From: Eubacteriales bacterium
GTDB taxonomy: Bacteria > Bacillota > Clostridia > Monoglobales > Firm-18
Direction: 5' to 3'
Assembly (NCBI GenBank): GCA_028697835.1
Contig: JAQVDK010000005.1
Coordinates: 1 to 47,498, forward strand
DNA: 47,498 bases
Part shown: in pieces, positions 1 through 10,051 of the stretch
Numbering within the stretch: the first letter of the stretch is position 1
Layout: every line of letters starts with the position of its first letter
Program-made: the position numbers and the translations under genes
Notes under the pieces: model-generated
Told to the model about the DNA's origin: nothing
Databases searched by the model: none
What the model saw: the letters and a program-made list of their open reading frames with translations, nothing else

Positions 1-61
1 TTGGTAGAGCAATTGACTCTTAATCAATGGGTCCTGGGTTCGAGTCCCCGATGGCGCACCA
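1..61 (+). tRNA. tRNA-Lys(CTT), 5' end cut off by the window
   Basis: This is the 3' part of a tRNA, starting in the D loop. The anticodon arm pairs ATTGA with TCAAT around a seven-base loop, CTCTTAA, whose central CTT (19-21) decodes the lysine codon AAG. The T loop TTCGAGT follows, and the 3' acceptor strand ATGGCGC ends in an encoded CCA at 59-61. One oddity is a T-C mismatch (35 and 49) in the T stem. The first part of the gene (acceptor 5' strand and D stem) lies outside the window, so the cloverleaf cannot be checked in full. Confidence 0.93.
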
Positions 62-1745: not shown

Positions 1746-2339
1746 ATGTATGATGATTTAACAAGCAGGCAGCTTGAAATTTTAAGCTTTATTACGGAAT
1801 TTATAAGTTCAAACGGCTACCCCCCTTCGATTAGGGAAATCGGAAAGGCTGTTGGATTAAAATCCACATCCTCTGTCCACAACCACATTCAAGCACTTGA
1901 AAGATTAGGGTATATTACAAAAAACGGTTTAAAAAAACGCTCTATGTTTCCCTCTAACCTTTCAAAACATATAAACGTTCCGGTAGTTGGCAAAATAACC
2001 GCCGGGGCGCCAATTTTAGCCGTTGAAAACATTGAGGACTATTTTCCCATACCTGAATCCTTTGCCAAAAACAAGGATTTATTCATTTTAACCATCTCCG
2101 GTGACAGCATGAGGGATGCCGGCATCTTAGATGGCGACTATGTTATTGTTCAAAAACAAAACACCGCCCAAAGCGGCGATATAGTGGCTGCGCTGATTGA
2201 CAACGAAGCAACAGTTAAGACATTCTATAAAACAGACACCGAAATTATCCTTCAGCCTGAAAATCCCGCATATGAGCCTATAAAACTAAAACAAGTTGAA
2301 ATACTTGGCAAAATTACCGGCGTGTTTAGAATGTTATGA
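1746..2339 (+). CDS. lexA: LexA, SOS-response repressor and autoprotease
   Basis: A 197-residue, full-length LexA. The N-terminal winged helix-turn-helix (about residues 1-65; motif PPSIREIGKAVGLKS around 26-40) binds operator DNA. The C-terminal S24 peptidase domain (about 78-197) has the self-cleavage bond A86-G87, the catalytic serine S121 in GDSM and the lysine K158 in ATVK. Activated RecA triggers cleavage, which relieves repression of DNA-repair genes. AAGGCGGTG precedes the ATG at a suitable distance. No GAAC-N4-GTTC type operator is evident in the bases just upstream, so autoregulation cannot be supported from the sequence here. The last 14 bases overlap the 3' end of the convergent PLP-enzyme gene, and no terminator is visible between them. 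Confidence 0.95.
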   Translation: MYDDLTSRQLEILSFITEFISSNGYPPSIREIGKAVGLKSTSSVHNHIQALERLGYITKNGLKKRSMFPSNLSKHINVPVVGKITAGAPILAVENIEDYFPIPESFAKNKDLFILTISGDSMRDAGILDGDYVIVQKQNTAQSGDIVAALIDNEATVKTFYKTDTEIILQPENPAYEPIKLKQVEILGKITGVFRML

Positions 2340-3615
2340 TTTTTGCATCAAAAAGGGATTGAACAGCACTTGCTATGCCGACATAAGCGCTGTCAAAGGT
2401 CAAGCCCCCTTGCATATACACTATGTAAGGCGGCTTTATGGGTCCGTCCGCCGATAGCTCAATAGACGCACCTTGATTAAATGCGCCTGCCGCCATTATT
2501 ACTTTGTGGCTGTATCCGGGCATATCCCAAGGCTCGGGAACTACAAAGCTGTCAATTGGCGCTCCCTTTTGAATACCTTGGCAAAACTTAACAACTCCCT
2601 GTTCGCTGCCCATTTTAATCGCTTGAATAATATCACTGCGTACATCATCAACCTTTGGAGAAACTTCAAAGCCTAACCTGCCAAATACCGCGCCGCAAAA
2701 AAGTGCGGCTTTAAGGCTTTCGCCGACTATATGAGGCGCCATGAACAATCCCTGAAGAATCTCTTTATTCGTGTTTAAGGTTGCGCCTACATCTTTTCCA
2801 AGGCCCACCGAATTTAGCTTGTATGAAACAAGCTCCACCAAATCTTTTCTGCCGGCTACATAACCACCTGTGGAAACCAAGCCGCCCCCGGGATTTTTAA
2901 TCAGCGAGCCTGCCATAAGGTCCGCCCCATAATTGGTCGGCTCATCAGCTTCAACAAATTCTCCATAACAATTATCCACAATACATATTATATTGGGATT
3001 TATTTTTTTTACTGTTTCTATAATTTTTCCTATTTCCTTGTTTGTAAGAGACGGGCGCCAATCATACCCTTTCGACTTTTGTATCAAAACCGCTTTGGTA
3101 TTTTCGCCCAAAGTTAACATAATATTATTATAGTCAACACAACCGTCAATTAAATCAATTTGCTTATAATCAACACCGAATTCTTTTAGCGAGCCTTTGC
3201 CGTGTCCTGTTATCCCTATGACTTCTTCCAAGGTGTCGTATGGTTTTCCGGTAACGGACACAAGGGTATCCCCGGGGCGCAAAACACCAAAAAGACAAAG
3301 TGATATTGCATGTGTTCCGCTTACTATGTTATGGCGTACCAATGCATCTTCAGCTCCAAAAACCTGTGCATAAACACTGTCAATGGCTTCTCTTCCTGCA
3401 TCGCCGTAGCCATAGCCGCTTGTGCTTGCAAAATGTGTGTCGCTTATTTTATTGTCCTTAAAAGCCGCCAAAACTTTAAGTTGGTTATATCTTGATATTT
3501 TTTCGATTTTGGCTGCCTGCAATATTATTTTCTCATATGTTTCCTCACAAAAATTATAAACCTTTGGCGAAATGCCAAAGCTTTTGCCTAAAACATCCTT
3601 TGTATCGTAAATCAT
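2326..3615 (-). CDS. PLP-dependent enzyme, methionine gamma-lyase-like (PF06838) family
   Basis: A 429-residue fold-type I PLP enzyme of the family annotated as methionine gamma-lyase family or, historically, aluminium-resistance protein. The likely PLP lysine is K240 in GSLIKNPGGG, and an aspartate that would bind the pyridine nitrogen lies in IVDNCYGEF about 25 residues earlier. SGTHAISLCLFG matches the phosphate-binding region of cystathionine gamma-synthase relatives. The chosen ATG at 3615 overlaps the upstream aminopeptidase stop as ATGA and has GGAGG seven bases upstream. An in-frame ATG five codons earlier includes that ribosome binding site and is less likely. The substrate is unknown; sulfur amino acid cleavage is only a family-level guess. 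It ends the murD-M42 operon. In many Firmicutes this gene sits near hfq/miaA instead, so the context here is unusual. Confidence 0.85.
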   Translation of the reverse strand: MIYDTKDVLGKSFGISPKVYNFCEETYEKIILQAAKIEKISRYNQLKVLAAFKDNKISDTHFASTSGYGYGDAGREAIDSVYAQVFGAEDALVRHNIVSGTHAISLCLFGVLRPGDTLVSVTGKPYDTLEEVIGITGHGKGSLKEFGVDYKQIDLIDGCVDYNNIMLTLGENTKAVLIQKSKGYDWRPSLTNKEIGKIIETVKKINPNIICIVDNCYGEFVEADEPTNYGADLMAGSLIKNPGGGLVSTGGYVAGRKDLVELVSYKLNSVGLGKDVGATLNTNKEILQGLFMAPHIVGESLKAALFCGAVFGRLGFEVSPKVDDVRSDIIQAIKMGSEQGVVKFCQGIQKGAPIDSFVVPEPWDMPGYSHKVIMAAGAFNQGASIELSADGPIKPPYIVYMQGGLTFDSAYVGIASAVQSLFDAKIITF

Positions 3616-4583
3616 AAAACCTCCATACAAGCTTTTGTCAGTAAGTTAATTGCCCCTTTAACATCAGAAATAGATACGGTTTCACAAGGTGTGTGTATAT
3701 ATCGGGTAGGTATGGAAATTGCGCCTGTTGCAACTCCGGCGCCGCTTGTGTGAATTGCTCCGGCATCTGTTCCGCCTACGTCAAGCACTTCATATTGAAC
3801 CTTGATATTGTGCTTTTGGGCAACATCGGAAAGATGTTTTTTTATAATCGGATGACACATAATTGAATTGTCTTTAATTTTTATAGCAGGACCTTCACCT
3901 AATTTCAAAGGATATTTTCCTCCTCCGGGAAAATCGTCGCAGGTTGTAACATCAACTGCTATGGCATAATCGGGCGAAATACCTGCGGCTGCTGTTTTAG
4001 CACCTCTTAGCCCCAGTTCCTCCTGCACGCTAAAGACAAAATACAGGTCGTTTTCACTGCCGCTTATTTGCTTTAATGTTTCTATTAAAATATAACATCC
4101 TACTCTATCATCAAGGGCTTTTGAGGATATAAAATCACCGAAAACATCAAAAGCTCCCCTCATCACACCCACATCTCCAACTTTTACACTGTAAGGCTTG
4201 TCGCCTTTACACGCATCAAAAGAGTCAATGTAGAAATCCGCTAATTTACTTGGTTTTTCGACTTTTTTATACACAACTCCTACTGCACCGTTTTCAAATT
4301 CCACCTTGCTGCTGTGTAAAGTTTCCGGCTTTACACCACCTATATTCGAAAAATGGATATAATTTTTATCGTCTATAACGGTTACTATAATTCCTACCTC
4401 GTCCATGTGGGCAGAAAGCATTATTTTTTTTCCGGTTCCCTTTTTTCTAACGATAAGATTACCCAATGTATCTTGGGTGATTTCATCAGCGTATGGCTTA
4501 ACTTCATTTTTTATTATTTCCCTAATTTTGCCTTCGTTTCCAGAAGGACCAAAGGCTTGGCAAAGTCTTCTTAAAAGCTCCAC
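3612..4583 (-). CDS. M42-family metallo-aminopeptidase, copy 3 of 3
   Basis: A 323-residue M42 peptidase (glutamyl aminopeptidase / TET / FrvX-like family), a binuclear metal exopeptidase that usually forms dodecameric tetrahedral particles and trims short peptides. All expected ligands are present: H59-x-D61 (SAHMDEVG), D158 (ALDDRVG), catalytic base E188 and ligand E189 (VQEELGLRG), D211 (IAVDVT) and H297 (RYIHTPCE). Start is GTG at 4583 with AAAGGAGG upstream, overlapping the preceding M42 gene by 13 bases. This is the most divergent of the three copies: it lacks the G-x-KPPH segment of the other two and has a KPSKLADFYID region there instead. Cytosolic, with no signal peptide. Peptide specificity cannot be read from the sequence. 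Confidence 0.92.
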   Translation of the reverse strand: MELLRRLCQAFGPSGNEGKIREIIKNEVKPYADEITQDTLGNLIVRKKGTGKKIMLSAHMDEVGIIVTVIDDKNYIHFSNIGGVKPETLHSSKVEFENGAVGVVYKKVEKPSKLADFYIDSFDACKGDKPYSVKVGDVGVMRGAFDVFGDFISSKALDDRVGCYILIETLKQISGSENDLYFVFSVQEELGLRGAKTAAAGISPDYAIAVDVTTCDDFPGGGKYPLKLGEGPAIKIKDNSIMCHPIIKKHLSDVAQKHNIKVQYEVLDVGGTDAGAIHTSGAGVATGAISIPTRYIHTPCETVSISDVKGAINLLTKACMEVL

Positions 4584-5590
4584 AAAGCCGCCTCCTTTGT
4601 TAAAAATTTATCCAATATATCTTTGCAGGAATTTATATCATCAATACATGCCACGTTTGACGGGGAATGGATATATCTGCAAGGGACGGATATAACAGCG
4701 GTTCTTACTCCTGTTTCGCTAAGATGTATTACCGACGCGTCGTTCCCGCCAAAAGTAGTTTGCTTAAATTGAACATTGATATTATGGGCTGTGGCAGTGT
4801 TATACAGCGCATTTCTAAGGCCTATATCCGAATACGAGCCCCTATCCATAATGGAAAGCGCCGCACCATGCCTTAACTTGGTTGAAAATCCGTCTTCGGT
4901 TGAGCCTGCAACGTCAGAGCAGGTGGTGCCTTCCACTACAATGGCAATGTCAGGCTTTACTTGGTATGCTGCAATTGCACCGCCCCTGCAGCCCACTTCC
5001 TCCTGCACAGTAAACACAAAATATATATCATGGAAGTAAGTGTTTTTTGCAAGCTCTATTAAAACATAGCACCCAACTCTATCATCTAATGCCTTTGCCT
5101 TTATAAGATTGCCTCCAAACTCAACATACTGGCTGTCGAAGGCAACATAGTCGCCCAAGTTTACATAGTTTTTTGCATCTTCTTTGTCTTTTGCTCCTAT
5201 ATCTATATATAAATCCTTTATTTTTGGTGCCTTGTCAGCTTTATCATCGTTTAAATGAGGCGGTTTGTCGCCTATCACTCCCGGTACTTTGTTTATGCCT
5301 ATTACAACTTTTTTTGCTATCAAAACCCTCGGGTCTATTCCACCCACTGTTTTAAAGCGCAAATACCCTTCGTTTGTAATATCCGTTATTATCAGCCCTA
5401 CCTCGTCCATGTGTGCCGAAAGCATTATTTTTCTGCGGCTGTCTCCAACTCCTTTTTTATAGCAAATAAGATTTCCCATAGAATCTGTTTCAATGCTGTC
5501 GCAAAGACTTTGCATTTCATTTGCGATTAAATCCCTTACATCATTTTCACAGCCAGAAACGCCAAAAGCGTTGCATAAGGATTTTAACAT
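4571..5590 (-). CDS. M42-family metallo-aminopeptidase, copy 2 of 3
   Basis: A 339-residue M42 peptidase. Ligands: H60-x-D62, D169 (ALDDRVG), E197/E198 (VQEEVGCRG), E220 and H308 (RYIHSP). At the D/E metal position this copy has Glu (VVEGTT) where its two neighbours have Asp (VDVT); both variants occur in M42 enzymes. The start is placed at ATG 5590, inside the end of the upstream gene (ATGTTAA overlap), because GAGGAGGG lies six bases before it. A longer in-frame start nine codons upstream has no such site. It carries the GVIGDKPPH segment shared with copy 1. Cytosolic, co-transcribed and translationally coupled to both neighbours. Confidence 0.92.
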   Translation of the reverse strand: MLKSLCNAFGVSGCENDVRDLIANEMQSLCDSIETDSMGNLICYKKGVGDSRRKIMLSAHMDEVGLIITDITNEGYLRFKTVGGIDPRVLIAKKVVIGINKVPGVIGDKPPHLNDDKADKAPKIKDLYIDIGAKDKEDAKNYVNLGDYVAFDSQYVEFGGNLIKAKALDDRVGCYVLIELAKNTYFHDIYFVFTVQEEVGCRGGAIAAYQVKPDIAIVVEGTTCSDVAGSTEDGFSTKLRHGAALSIMDRGSYSDIGLRNALYNTATAHNINVQFKQTTFGGNDASVIHLSETGVRTAVISVPCRYIHSPSNVACIDDINSCKDILDKFLTKEAALWSF

Positions 5591-6600
5591 TCCATTCCCT
5601 CCTCTATTGTGCTGCAAATAGTTGAAGCAACAGCTTCAATATCGGACATGCAAACCGTTTCTACCTGTGTATGCATATACCGCAAGGGAACGGACACCAA
5701 GGCGCAGGGGATACCTTTTTTAGTTATTTGAATAGCCCATGCATCTGTACCGGAGTTTCCTGCGCACACTTCTATAACATGGGGGATTTCGTGTTTTTTG
5801 GCTGTATCAATCAGCGCCTTGGACAAGCTTGGATGTAAATTCGGTCCAACGCCAACAGCTACGCCGCAGCCCAAGGGAAATGCATTGCTCGAGCTTTCTG
5901 TATATGGGGAAATGCCATGGGTAACGTCTATTACAATAGCGGCATCGGGATTTATGCTATATGAGGCAACTTTTGCCCCCCTTAGTCCAACCTCTTCCTG
6001 AACTGCAGCTAAAAAAACCAACTCATAAGGCAAATCTTTGCCTTTAAGCCGTTTTGCACATTCTATAAGGCACCATATACCCATCCGATTGTCAATGGAT
6101 TTAGAGGCCATTTTTTCATTCTGAAGCCTAACCGGTTTTGACACAAAGGTAATGGCGTCGCCTATTTGAATTTTACCTAATAGTTCTTCACGGGAAAACC
6201 CGGCGTCGATATACATTTCATCTGTTTTATAGTTTTTCTTGCTTTCTTCCTCGGTTTGCAGGTGCGGAGGTTTTGACCCTATCACGCCAAAGACCTTTTC
6301 CTTGCCATGTATGAAAACCTCTGCCGCCGGAAGTGTAGCAGGGTTTATTCCGCCTATTTTAACAAAGCTTATAAATCCTTTATCGTCAATATTTTTCACC
6401 ATTAAGCCTATTTCGTCAAGGTGGGCTTCAATCATGATTTTCTTGCCCCTGCCTTTGCCTATTACACCTACCACATTGCCTAAAACGTCCGTATCAACAA
6501 AGTCGCAATGCTGCCTCAGCATATTGCAAACCTTGTTTCCAATCTCAAATTCAAATCCGGATATACCTTCAAAACTGCATAATTTCATTAAATCTTCCAT
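5584..6600 (-). CDS. M42-family metallo-aminopeptidase, copy 1 of 3
   Basis: A 338-residue M42 peptidase, first of three consecutive paralogues. Ligands: H60-x-D62 (EAHLDEIG), D170 (SIDNRMG, with Asn where the others have a second Asp), E202/E203 (VQEEVGLRG), D225 (VIDVTHG) and H310 (RYMHTQVETV). It has the GVIGSKPPH segment. The ATG at 6600 lies directly after the murD stop, and the GATGGAG within the last murD codons serves as its ribosome binding site. The three copies differ considerably over their length, so this is an old paralogous set rather than a recent tandem duplication. Probable role: hydrolysis of oligopeptides to free amino acids. Confidence 0.92.
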   Translation of the reverse strand: MEDLMKLCSFEGISGFEFEIGNKVCNMLRQHCDFVDTDVLGNVVGVIGKGRGKKIMIEAHLDEIGLMVKNIDDKGFISFVKIGGINPATLPAAEVFIHGKEKVFGVIGSKPPHLQTEEESKKNYKTDEMYIDAGFSREELLGKIQIGDAITFVSKPVRLQNEKMASKSIDNRMGIWCLIECAKRLKGKDLPYELVFLAAVQEEVGLRGAKVASYSINPDAAIVIDVTHGISPYTESSSNAFPLGCGVAVGVGPNLHPSLSKALIDTAKKHEIPHVIEVCAGNSGTDAWAIQITKKGIPCALVSVPLRYMHTQVETVCMSDIEAVASTICSTIEEGMEC

Positions 6601-6602
6601 TT

Positions 6603-7955
6603 TTATAGCTCCATCACTAACTTTTTGAACATTTTTCCTCTTTCTTCAAAGTTTTTAAACATATCAAAGCTTGCACAAGCCGGCGACAAAAGAACCACAT
6701 CGCCTTTTTGGGCAACAGACGAGGCGGTTTTGACAGCTTGCTCAAGGCTTTCACTCATAATAATCTCGGGCTTTTCGCCTTGGGCGTTTTCAACCGCTGT
6801 TTTAATTTTTTCCGCCGTTGCACCAAGCAAAATCAGAGTTTTAACCCTTTTGGCAATAACTTTCCCAAAATCTTCAAAGGGAATTTCCTTATCATACCCA
6901 CCGGCAATAAGAACTACCTTTTGGTCAAATGAATAAAGACCTGCCGTTGCTCTTGTGGGACTGCTTGCAATTGAATCGTTGTAGTAGCGAACACCGCCGG
7001 CTTCTCTTACAAACTCAATCCTATGCTCTACGCCGCCAAAGGTTTTTGCAACCTTTTTTATGGTTTTATCGCTTACTTGTCCGTAAACCGCTGCAATTGC
7101 AGCCATATAGTTTTCTACATTATGCTTTCCGGGCAAAAATATGTCGCGGCAATTTAGCACATGGGTGCTTTTAAAGTATATGCTGTCATTGTCAACATAA
7201 ACATCGTTTGTTTTATCCGTGCCAAAGGATATTACCTTGCCCTTTGCCTTGCATGCAAATGATTTGGTAATTTCATTATCAAAATTAAGGACTAAAACAT
7301 CGCCGAGGTTTTGATATTTATAAATGTTTTCTTTGGCGGCAATGTATTCTTCCATGCTTTTGTGCATATCAAGGTGATTGGGCGATAAATTGGTAACAAC
7401 CGCAACAGATGGGCTTTTTTTCATTGTATGAAGCTGAAAACTGCTAAGCTCAACAACTACTTTATGCTCCGGCTTTATATTATAGATTTCACTAAGAAGC
7501 GGCTTTCCGATATTTCCTCCCAAATGACATGTAAACCCCTCGGCTTTTAGCATTTCATATATCAGCGTAGTGGTTGTTGTCTTTCCGTCACTTCCTGTGA
7601 CAGCAATAATTTCGGCAGGGCAAACATCAAAGAAAACCTCCATTTCAGAGGTTATTATACTGCCCCTGTTTTTAGCCTGCACAAGCTGAGGGATGTCTAT
7701 GCGCATTCCGGGTGTTTTAAAAATTATATCCTCGTTTATGCCTTCCAGATAGTTTTCACCTAAAACCAGGCGAACGCCTAAACTTTTAAGCTTCGCACCG
7801 GTATCGCCAAGATCGTCAAAGTTTTTTTTGTCCCTGGCGGTTACCTTTGCACCCATTTGGGAGAGCATGCAAATAAGCGGCGTATTGCTGACTCCAATTC
7901 CCAAAACGCCGACATTTTTATTTTTAACATAAGATTTAAAATCTTCTATCGTCAT
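6603..7955 (-). CDS. murD: UDP-N-acetylmuramoyl-L-alanine--D-glutamate ligase (MurD)
   Basis: A 450-residue Mur ligase that adds D-glutamate to UDP-MurNAc-L-Ala in cytoplasmic peptidoglycan precursor synthesis. It has an N-terminal Rossmann-like domain (GVLGIGVSN near residue 15), an ATP-binding P-loop GSDGKTTTT at 121-129, a central-domain NLSPNHLDMH motif, and a C-terminal domain with YNDSIASSP and a conserved SPACASFDMF near the end. CAGGTGG precedes the ATG. It is isolated from the dcw cluster and is instead followed by three M42 peptidase genes. A terminator-like hairpin lies upstream, between it and ispH-rpsA, so it may have its own expression or be transcribed by read-through. Confidence 0.95.
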   Translation of the reverse strand: MTIEDFKSYVKNKNVGVLGIGVSNTPLICMLSQMGAKVTARDKKNFDDLGDTGAKLKSLGVRLVLGENYLEGINEDIIFKTPGMRIDIPQLVQAKNRGSIITSEMEVFFDVCPAEIIAVTGSDGKTTTTTLIYEMLKAEGFTCHLGGNIGKPLLSEIYNIKPEHKVVVELSSFQLHTMKKSPSVAVVTNLSPNHLDMHKSMEEYIAAKENIYKYQNLGDVLVLNFDNEITKSFACKAKGKVISFGTDKTNDVYVDNDSIYFKSTHVLNCRDIFLPGKHNVENYMAAIAAVYGQVSDKTIKKVAKTFGGVEHRIEFVREAGGVRYYNDSIASSPTRATAGLYSFDQKVVLIAGGYDKEIPFEDFGKVIAKRVKTLILLGATAEKIKTAVENAQGEKPEIIMSESLEQAVKTASSVAQKGDVVLLSPACASFDMFKNFEERGKMFKKLVMEL

Positions 7956-8038: not shown

Positions 8039-10051
8039 TTATTCTTCAGCCGTTTCTTCGGTAACTTCTTCGCCTGTTTCTTCTTTTTGGGCCTCACCGT
8101 CAGCGGTGTTTGCTGTATCTTCCGTTTCCTGTGCAACTTCCTCAGTGGCCTGCGGTTCAAGCAATGCACGAATGCTAAGGCTGATTTTCTTATTCTCCCA
8201 GTCAATAGCAATAATTTTAGCTTCAACTTCCTGACCAACCGAAAGAACACTTGAAGGATTTGGAATCCTCTCGGTTGAAATTTGGGAAATGTGAATCAAA
8301 CCATCTACTGATGGCAAAAGCTCTGCAAAAGCACCAAACGACACAAGGCGCACAATCTTAACTTTAACAACATCTCCCACGTTATACATTGCCTGAGCTT
8401 TAATCCATGGATTATCCTCAGGACGCTTGTATCCAAGGGATACCCTGTTATCTTCTTTTGACAGACTAAGGATATATACCTTTACATTATCTCCAACGTT
8501 TAAAACTTCTGACGGATGGTTTATCATACTCCATGAAAGCTCGGAGATATGTATCAAACCATCTATCCCGCCTATATCAACAAACGCACCGAAATCGGTT
8601 ATTGATTTTACAACGCCTTCATATTCTTTGCCTACCTCGGCATTTGCCCAAAATTCTTCAAACTTTTTCTGTTTAACCTCTTGAAGAACGGATTTAATGG
8701 AGCCTACAACTTTTCTGCGTCGAGGATTTATTTCCGTAATCCTAAATTGCACCTTAGTGCCTACCAGTGAGCTTAAATCCTGCAGATATCTGTCGCTTGC
8801 CTGTGAAGCCGGAATAAAAACACGGGATTCGTTATAAAGGACAATAACTCCTCCTCTTACGGCGTCGATAACCTTGCCTGTAAGAATTTCCTTGGTTTCC
8901 AAGGCTTCTTCAAGCTTTTTCCTGCTTTCAATTGCTGCAAGCTTTCTTACAGACAACCCCACAACGCCTTCTTTATCACTAACACGATAAACGAAAGCCT
9001 CAATTTCTTGTCCAATCTTGACAACTTCTTCCGGCTTTAAATCGGAATCGCTGGAGAGTTCGTCAGCCGTAATAACACCGTCCATCTTAAAGCCAATGTC
9101 AACATAAACTTCTGTTGGTGTAATGCCTATGACAGTTCCTTTCACTATATCTCCAGTTGTCGGATTGACTAAAGTACTTTCCAACTCTTCCACAAAATTC
9201 ATCTCTTCCATTGTTGTTTTTTCTGACATAAAATTAATGACCTCCTTAATAATCCATTCAGGCGTAGAGGCTCCCGCCGTAACACCTATAATGCATTTAT
9301 CAAAAACTGACTTTGGCAGTTCTGATGCTGTTTCAACGTGATAAGTTTCAGGACAAATACTGCTGCAAATATCAAATAATTTTTTTGTATTCGAGCTATG
9401 CCTTCCGCCAATCACAATCATGCAATCGGAATTTTCGGCCATTTTTTTTGCTTCGCTTTGCCTTTCATCCGTTGCACTGCATATTGTATCAAATATTAGC
9501 ACCTCTTTGCAAGATGTTTTTGCATTTTTTTTGATTTTTTCCCAAATTTCTTTTGAAGAAGTTGTTTGTGCAACCAAACAAATCTTCTCGCCATTTGCTT
9601 TGCACTCAAACTCATGCAAGTCTTGAACAATTTCGGCACAGTTTTCGCACCATCCGTTAATTCCTTGCACTTCAGGGTGGTTTGGGTCGCCGAAAATTAT
9701 AGTCTTATATCCTTTATTATGATATTCTTTTACAATTTTATGAATTTTTCTTACATAAGGGCAAGTAGCATCGATAACATTTGCGTTTATTCTTTCAAGC
9801 TGGTCATATATTTCAGGCGCCACCCCATGAGTTCGTATAATAACCGTAGAGCCTTTGGAGATATCTTCCACCCTATCCGCTTCAAAAATTCCAAGAAGCC
9901 TAAGCTTGTCTATAACCTGGGCATTATGTATAAGCGGGCCTAATGTATAGACTGTGCTCTTTTTTTGCTTGTCAGCAGTTTCATAAGCGATAGAAATAGC
10001 TCTTTTTACGCCAAAACAAAAACCCGCACTTTTGGCAAGATTAATTTTCAT
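8039..10051 (-). CDS. ispH: IspH (HMB-PP reductase) fused to ribosomal protein S1
   Basis: A 670-residue bifunctional protein. Residues 1-280 are IspH, the [4Fe-4S] enzyme that makes IPP/DMAPP in the last step of the MEP pathway: cluster cysteines C12 (GFCFGV), C97 (DATCPYV) and C191 (TICSAT), and substrate histidines H42, H75 and H125, are all present. After a short linker, four S1 RNA-binding domains follow at about 298-370, 388-455, 473-541 and 557-628 (the last two with the FGAF and GLIHIS motifs), then an acidic Glu/Thr-rich tail. This fusion is known in Clostridia. The gene overlaps plsC by ATGA. The reading frame is intact across the junction, so it is not a frameshift artefact. S1 here may be a translation-related RNA binder rather than a classical 30S protein. 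Confidence 0.95.
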   Translation of the reverse strand: MKINLAKSAGFCFGVKRAISIAYETADKQKKSTVYTLGPLIHNAQVIDKLRLLGIFEADRVEDISKGSTVIIRTHGVAPEIYDQLERINANVIDATCPYVRKIHKIVKEYHNKGYKTIIFGDPNHPEVQGINGWCENCAEIVQDLHEFECKANGEKICLVAQTTSSKEIWEKIKKNAKTSCKEVLIFDTICSATDERQSEAKKMAENSDCMIVIGGRHSSNTKKLFDICSSICPETYHVETASELPKSVFDKCIIGVTAGASTPEWIIKEVINFMSEKTTMEEMNFVEELESTLVNPTTGDIVKGTVIGITPTEVYVDIGFKMDGVITADELSSDSDLKPEEVVKIGQEIEAFVYRVSDKEGVVGLSVRKLAAIESRKKLEEALETKEILTGKVIDAVRGGVIVLYNESRVFIPASQASDRYLQDLSSLVGTKVQFRITEINPRRRKVVGSIKSVLQEVKQKKFEEFWANAEVGKEYEGVVKSITDFGAFVDIGGIDGLIHISELSWSMINHPSEVLNVGDNVKVYILSLSKEDNRVSLGYKRPEDNPWIKAQAMYNVGDVVKVKIVRLVSFGAFAELLPSVDGLIHISQISTERIPNPSSVLSVGQEVEAKIIAIDWENKKISLSIRALLEPQATEEVAQETEDTANTADGEAQKEETGEEVTEETAEE

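Follow-up and report, generated by a model that had tools for sequence, protein, structure and literature searches.

A three-gene M42 aminopeptidase cassette of Clostridia, with coupled losses that suggest a heterodimer with swapped active-site loops

The A-B-C cassette and its spread

The DNA considered here is a stretch of 47,498 nucleotides (nt) from an Eubacteriales bacterium (contig JAQVDK010000005.1; hereafter the window), the minus strand of which contains three adjacent M42 peptidase genes that form the subject of this report. The first gene of the operon, A (5584-6600), encodes a protein of 338 residues with a KPPH loop and the full catalytic set. The second, B (4571-5590), encodes 339 residues as counted from its ATG, the listed open reading frame (ORF) opening at TTG 5617, and it also carries a KPPH loop, with Glu serving as the fourth metal ligand. 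The third, C (3612-4583), starts at GTG and encodes 323 residues with an intact catalytic set and no KPPH loop. All three match PF05343 (304, 310 and 280 bits for A, B and C, against a cut-off of 23.2), in agreement with an earlier note on this DNA that had described three overlapping M42 genes at coordinates that proved exact. Specifically, the seven metal and catalytic positions, an HDDEE(D/E)H set, are present in the alignment of all three proteins, which bears out the same note's claim that each copy is complete. The identities of B and C to A (36% and 38% in the alignment) mark the three proteins as old paralogues.

With respect to the active site, the two loops deserve particular attention. 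The K-P-P-H of A is encoded at 6262-6273 on the minus strand, and its histidine (H113) is taken to be the one presented to the B site, a role drawn from what PMC3472314 and PMC8993905 describe for related enzymes. The K-P-P-H of B is encoded at 5255-5266 on the same strand, with H112 read as the residue offered to the A site. A loop with a conserved His (PPH or KxxH) is thus found in both window proteins, and B has its Glu codon for the D/E metal ligand, as read from the sequence and the alignment, at 4931-4933 (minus strand). The window cassette represents the undegraded state, in which all three subunits are catalytically complete and KPPH occurs in both A and B.

The genes themselves are tightly packed on the minus strand. 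As read from the sequence, the stop of A and the start of B overlap by 7 nt (5584-5590), with GGAGGG just upstream of the B ATG; the stop of B and the GTG of C overlap by 13 nt (4571-4583), with GGAGG upstream; and the stop of C overlaps by 4 nt (3612-3615) the following gene, which encodes a pyridoxal phosphate (PLP) enzyme. A GGAGG-like site stands ahead of every downstream start in this A-B-C-PLP run, and these sites and overlaps render translational coupling of A, B and C plausible. Gene overlap alone is a weak basis for proposing a mixed particle. A PF05343 search of the 1.79 Mb, 95% complete assembly found no further M42 gene. The NCBIfam M42 equivalogs (lysyl, glutamyl and others) all score far under their curated cut-offs (for A, 247 of 700 and 165 of 469.7 bits), and therefore no substrate specificity can be assigned.

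A tree built from 218 proteins sets each of the three groups apart by a single branch, with support of 100, 99 and 97 for A, B and C, respectively, and the window proteins fall in the clades of the same letter. This topology rules out a recent tandem duplication and, taken with a survey of the class, excludes that the trio is restricted to a single genome; a recent duplication confined to one genome was among the circumstances that the earlier note had itself regarded as fatal to its proposal. M42 proteins are present in 43 of the 51 genomes of the order, and the 40 regions of order genomes that were read contain tandem A-B or A-B-C clusters in which the genes mostly overlap. A further 40 regions from the class have the same A-B-C order, except for L084, in which C lies upstream of murD, and L102, in which the contig cuts off A (here and below, G, L, g and f label genomes, loci, genera and families). 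Among 46 genomes sampled from the class, M42 matches below 1e-50 occur in 26, of which 18 or more carry three M42 genes close together. A sample of the phylum yielded tandem genes in 15 of 51 genomes, all from other classes, and every one of these 15 clusters is A-B-C with complete sites. The class and phylum figures were counted by eye. The clusters that were read came from strong listed matches, so that genomes lacking tandem M42 genes are under-represented among them. Judged by this sequence comparison, the trio is ancient, comprising three orthologous groups with the same gene order throughout the class and in further classes of the phylum.

Each clade was also searched for signatures among the differences to which the earlier note had drawn attention. 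The Glu that replaces Asp at one ligand of copy 2 characterizes the B clade as a whole, being found in 110 of 110 intact B proteins, and the lack of a G-x-KPPH segment in copy 3 extends to the entire C clade, in which the loop occurs in 0 of 120 proteins (two apparent matches to the loop His were judged false by eye). The Asn that follows the third ligand in copy 1 is a real difference, but A proteins vary between N and D at this site, and it was rejected as a marker of A.

Several variations on the cassette were observed. Four-gene cassettes of the form A-B-C-C', with a second C-type gene, occur at L156, L159, L163, L165, L167, L171, L172 and other loci, including that of Intestinimonas butyriciproducens. 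At L268, L271 and L276, an intact C-type gene is the sole M42 gene of its stretch, with neither A nor B. At L289 (4392-5162; G404), A is truncated to 256 residues and followed by B and C in a nearly complete genome, the truncation perhaps reflecting a frameshift or a sequencing error. Replacement of C by a fused protein in genera g9 and g10 was considered and rejected, as the ORFs of ~850-870 residues that follow B there encode DNA polymerase I (L058) and an Ig-like surface protein (L051), neither of them related to C.

Dead copies and the coupled loss of the A loop and B site

Seven positions (His, Asp, Asp, Glu, Glu, Asp/Glu, His) were scored in each protein, with B counted as impaired when at least one was lost and C when at least two were lost. 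On this basis A is catalytically complete in 136 of 137 genomes, the remaining copy being truncated, and no A protein carries a substituted catalytic residue. B is impaired in 27 of the 137 genomes. C is impaired in 53 of 120 C proteins, spread over nine families (f1, f3, f4, f13, f15, f23, f32, f45 and f51), and dead C is already present in G001 and G006, which are relatives in the window genome's own family. An RpoB tree covering 30 genomes, 28 of them from the order, requires three changes in B, one each for f6, genus g9 and the group g10/g12/g13/g16; the branch that sets g9 apart has support of 92/93 and is not starred. One assembly, G004, was found to hold two differing rpoB copies (C8, C16), which may represent contamination or a true second copy.

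Ratios of nonsynonymous to synonymous substitution rates (dN/dS) range from 0.09 to 0.28 for dead B and dead C, in the 9 of 10 comparisons for which a value could be obtained, and from 0.06 to 0.14 for A and intact B. By this measure, purifying selection acts on dead B and C in the tested pairs, for which the intact frames and dN/dS values rule out pseudogenes. Metagenome assembly artefacts were likewise rejected, as impaired B together with a lost A loop also occurs in the single-contig, 99%-complete genomes G013, G167 and G381. AlphaFold monomer models predict that the two-domain M42 fold is kept in one dead B (predicted local distance difference test, pLDDT, 86) and in the dead C of Ructibacterium gallinarum (pLDDT 90.5). 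The best matches of both models are M42 enzymes of the tetrahedral (TET) type, with template modelling (TM) scores to 9qr6 of 0.91 for B and 0.85 for C, in each case over nearly the whole length. Within the dead copies, the fourth ligand, invariably Glu in intact B, is yet Asp in 22 of the 27 impaired B proteins. Conservation of the Asp two residues past the first His ligand (D62 in window B numbering; rank 22 in dead B and 14 in dead C) hints at a structural role for this residue.

The loop of dead B has fared differently from its ligands. The G-x-KPPH segment that copy 3 lacks corresponds to the TET2 loop containing P121-P122-H123, and for TET2 it is reported that deletion of the loop or a change of H123 strongly lowers activity and that H123 may sit near the adjacent subunit's site (PMC8993905). 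The active site of DNPEP is complete only with His170 of the facing subunit, an arrangement that the authors of that study extend, as a proposal, to M42 (PMC3472314). The loop His of B is kept in 135 of the 135 readable B proteins of the 137-genome set, 26 of which are impaired, and in 4 of 4 from genus g59, for a total of 139/139 (the truncated B proteins of L034 and L072 were set aside in the loop counts). When the 323 columns of 17 impaired B proteins are ordered by conservation, the loop His comes 15th and the neighbouring Lys, Ala, Leu, Glu and Arg fall in the top 45, whereas the first His, the third-ligand Asp, the two Glu residues and the last His rank 210, 242, 238, 135 and 144. That a protein should keep a substrate-site loop after losing the site itself is understandable if the target of the loop lies in another protein. 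Single non-C M42 proteins, for their part, have their own loop His in 14 of 14 read, as homodimers would need.

The A loop and the B site are lost together. Within the 137 genomes, the A loop is kept beside an intact B in 108 and lost beside an impaired B in 26; it is lost beside an intact B in 2 (G321 and G190) and kept beside an impaired B in 1 (G135). Four more genomes, from one genus, contribute 2, 1, 1 and 0 to these classes in the same order. In the resulting hand sum of 141 genomes, from which loci of a scan that used the B loop as its pattern, and that is therefore no test of B-loop retention, were left out (L180 among them), 110 keep the A loop and the B site, 27 have lost both, 3 have lost only the A loop and 1 has lost only a B ligand. 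The same association was found in family f45, for which 20 genomes were sampled after the idea had been formed: the A loop is lost in all 6 with impaired B and kept in all 14 with intact B. In genus g59, G426 and G429 have KPPH in A and an intact B, G190 and G427 have Tyr in place of the A loop His and an intact B, and G430 combines a missing A loop with a dead B, a series which indicates that the A loop can go first.

Linked losses of this kind might also arise without contact between subunits, if the whole cassette were decaying through shared relaxation in gut lineages with a rich peptide supply. Decay of C is indeed common and scattered, and losses of B and C are concentrated in f3 and f45. 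The losses are nonetheless specific, sparing the catalytic residues of A and the loop His of every readable B, and the dead genes are under purifying selection in the tested pairs. Moreover, loss of C is not tied to loss of the A loop, as 41 of 52 impaired C proteins in a plain count sit with an A loop that is kept. We consider general relaxation very improbable as an account of these data.

A proposed A:B heterodimer and the place of C

Coupled and one-sided losses are what a heterodimer of A and B with swapped loops predicts, and they suggest that an obligate A:B pair of this kind is the core of a heteromeric M42 (TET-type) aminopeptidase, a reading to which we assign a probability of roughly 0.74. 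Site I would consist of the metal and catalytic residues of A with the loop His of B, and site II of the corresponding residues of B with the loop His of A. Both composite sites would be complete in the window cassette, with C as a third, loop-independent enzyme subunit. Several lineages would have abandoned site II as a unit, that is, the A loop along with the B catalytic residues, and site I would always have been kept, with B persisting, though catalytically dead, as the donor of a loop to A.

This type of argument is available because paralogous subunits split each composite site over two genes, such that decay can show who pairs with whom. Were the loop to act in cis, or were the dimers A:A and B:B, the sole active enzyme would have discarded a useful loop while the dead one kept its own; coupled loss fits a loop that acts in trans on the partner subunit. 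Loop swapping itself is taken from DNPEP and is likely shared by M42, and the organization of TETs as dodecamers of dimers comes from the literature. The open point of whether the M42 loop His reaches across the dimer is in this way turned into a genetic argument, as paralogous subunits let the halves of a site decay separately.

A tree-aware likelihood comparison favours dependent over independent irreversible loss (likelihood ratio 58.1). Several points weigh against the A:B heterodimer. The likelihood comparison fixes the root as intact and allows no regain. Independent pairs on well-supported branches number 3-5, of which ~3 agree and 0 are opposite; the sign test is not significant and the tree is poorly resolved. 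Because such pairs are few, the strength of the case rests as much on the one-sided pattern and the newly sampled family as on event counts, and the plain Fisher p of 1e-24, which ignores relatedness, is not usable as evidence. In G135, whose family holds 4 genomes, a B ligand is changed from His to Gln while the A loop is intact. In G321, G190, G427 and locus L180, the A loop His is lost and B is intact, which fits a stepwise order of loss and weakens strict coupling. In G049 the A loop is shortened and its His displaced, so that the loop is lost in the 137-genome count and kept under a looser rule. The A and B genes of this genome (L052, L053) also lie apart on contigs that are uncut between them, with B impaired, the sole such split away from contig ends. 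Finally, C-type enzymes work without a loop (TmPep1050, discussed below), and A could also have turned loop-independent.

Loop independence of A is also part of a broader alternative in which A, B and C form three separate homododecamers (A12, B12 and C12) of different specificities, with dead B and C in unrelated regulatory or binding roles. Single M42 enzymes do form active homo-oligomers (CelM; PMC3511314), the P. horikoshii TETs are described as homododecamers (PMC4220976), C-type enzymes are loop-less and occur intact without adjacent A-B (L268, L271, L276), and A and B are not adjacent in G049. What separate homododecamers leave unexplained is why the sole active enzyme loses its loop where B dies, and why the loop His of dead B is kept in 26 of 26 readable proteins and is more conserved than the old ligands. 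In addition, G049 excepted, A without an adjacent B is found only where a contig end cuts the cluster. We therefore regard three separate particles as improbable.

In terms of C, the absence of a loop means that this subunit could not complete a partner's site and would be expected to pair with itself. All 53 impaired C proteins have A-B as neighbours, except that in G001 the neighbours are B and a fragment of A cut by the contig end, and some intact C proteins stand alone, as at the three loci named above. This pattern points to a use for dead C solely in the company of A-B, the simplest case being a structural role within one shared particle. We regard a mixed TET particle of A:B with C as probable. 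The earlier note had proposed a mixed particle on the strength of stoichiometric expression from overlapping genes; the comparative data now back the A:B part of that idea, and membership of C is favoured only indirectly, through the dead C beside A-B.

It is also conceivable that the A:B heterodimer is correct but that C forms a separate homo-oligomer or is kept for another role, giving two kinds of subunit per particle. A-B pairs without a detected C are common (23 of 137 genomes, with families f49, f65 and f70 among them), a loop-less C has no residue to contribute to A or B, and there are intact C proteins that stand by themselves. Set against this, dead C by itself would be catalytically useless, yet every impaired C is found with A-B as described, and B-C overlap or close spacing is kept in most clusters. 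We take this two-subunit arrangement as a serious contender, somewhat short of an even chance.

A fuller model would combine A:B heterodimers and C:C homodimers in one particle, for example with four AB and two CC edges and each apex formed by one A, one B and one C. Catalysis would then have been stripped subunit by subunit, from C and, separately, from the B site with the A loop, down to a single composite site (A plus the B loop) in a pseudopeptidase shell. We infer both the physical pairing of A with B and the presence of C in the particle from sequence comparison, and in this complete form we judge the model rather unlikely.

With regard to the genes that flank the cassette, profile matches identify the PLP enzyme (2326-3615, minus strand) as a member of the Met_gamma_lyase family (PF06838) and the gene at 6603-7955 (minus strand) as murD, which ends 2 nt before A. 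The PLP enzyme is a neighbour and not part of the proposed mechanism. The earlier note saw no clear link to either neighbour, and rightly so: they are shared mainly within the close family, and a functional link was rejected, as they were found in family f1 and some others only. Beyond murD, a single ORF (8039-10051, minus strand) combines an IspH-like N-terminal part with S1-type repeats, as judged by eye, and its relatives sit upstream of murD in several genomes of the order. At the other end, Rfam places a tRNA at 1-58 (plus strand) that is cut by the start of the window and contig; ARAGORN reports none.

Comparison with known systems

Under the A:B proposal, what look like three ordinary aminopeptidase genes would, across gut Clostridia, encode obligate heteromeric TET peptidases that include pseudoenzyme subunits, and the one-genus series would be a natural record of a compartment peptidase moving from all-active towards one-active subunits. 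Judged by titles and the opening lines of abstracts, we found no description of dead M42 subunits or of an M42 trio cassette in the open-licence PMC literature, absence from which is weak evidence. The passages of PMC4596419 and PMC4517919 that were available name M42 genes and offer nothing further of use.

The closest parallel for a mixed particle is provided by the PhTET2-PhTET3 heterododecamers of Pyrococcus horikoshii, which were assembled in vitro (PMC4220976). As is proposed for the cassette, M42 paralogues are able to share one tetrahedral particle, in the PhTET case with an apex of defined composition. The PhTET particles were obtained from pre-formed dimers of active subunits, whereas the cassette is characterized by a predicted A:B heterodimer whose loops would be exchanged reciprocally, by overlapping genes and, in some lineages, by dead subunits. 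Within the Bacillota, YtoP-YsdC of B. subtilis is listed as a paralogue dimer backed by in-cell crosslinks (PMC10090944), and the M42 structures matched by the dead-B model include its model 9a5r. This pair resembles the cassette in that M42 paralogues are found together, and differs in having two genes.

In Thermotoga maritima, TM1048, TM1049 and TM1050 (1vho, 2fvg and 3isx/4p6y) have consecutive locus tags, and have been solved and studied as separate enzymes. TM1048 may be the equivalent of A, given its numbering and a weak match. TM1049 is the best solved match of B and has a Glu ligand and an R-P-I-H loop. TM1050 is among the best matches of C and lacks PPH where the loop region aligns; this protein, TmPep1050, is reported to be an active aminopeptidase (PMC3511314), which indicates that a loop-less C can work when intact.

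Human DNPEP, a member of M18 (PMC3472314), is described as a dodecamer of dimers with a loop-swapped site for which His170 of the partner is essential, and in these respects it is similar to the proposed A:B pair. Unlike A:B, DNPEP is a homodimer from one gene, with identical sites that are unable to decay separately. Compartment peptidases of the proteasome and ClpP type combine active and inactive paralogous subunits. They are comparable to the particle proposed for the cassette in that some paralogues have become structural after losing catalysis, and differ from it in fold and chemistry and in that the dead subunit of the cassette is predicted to supply a loop residue to its active partner.

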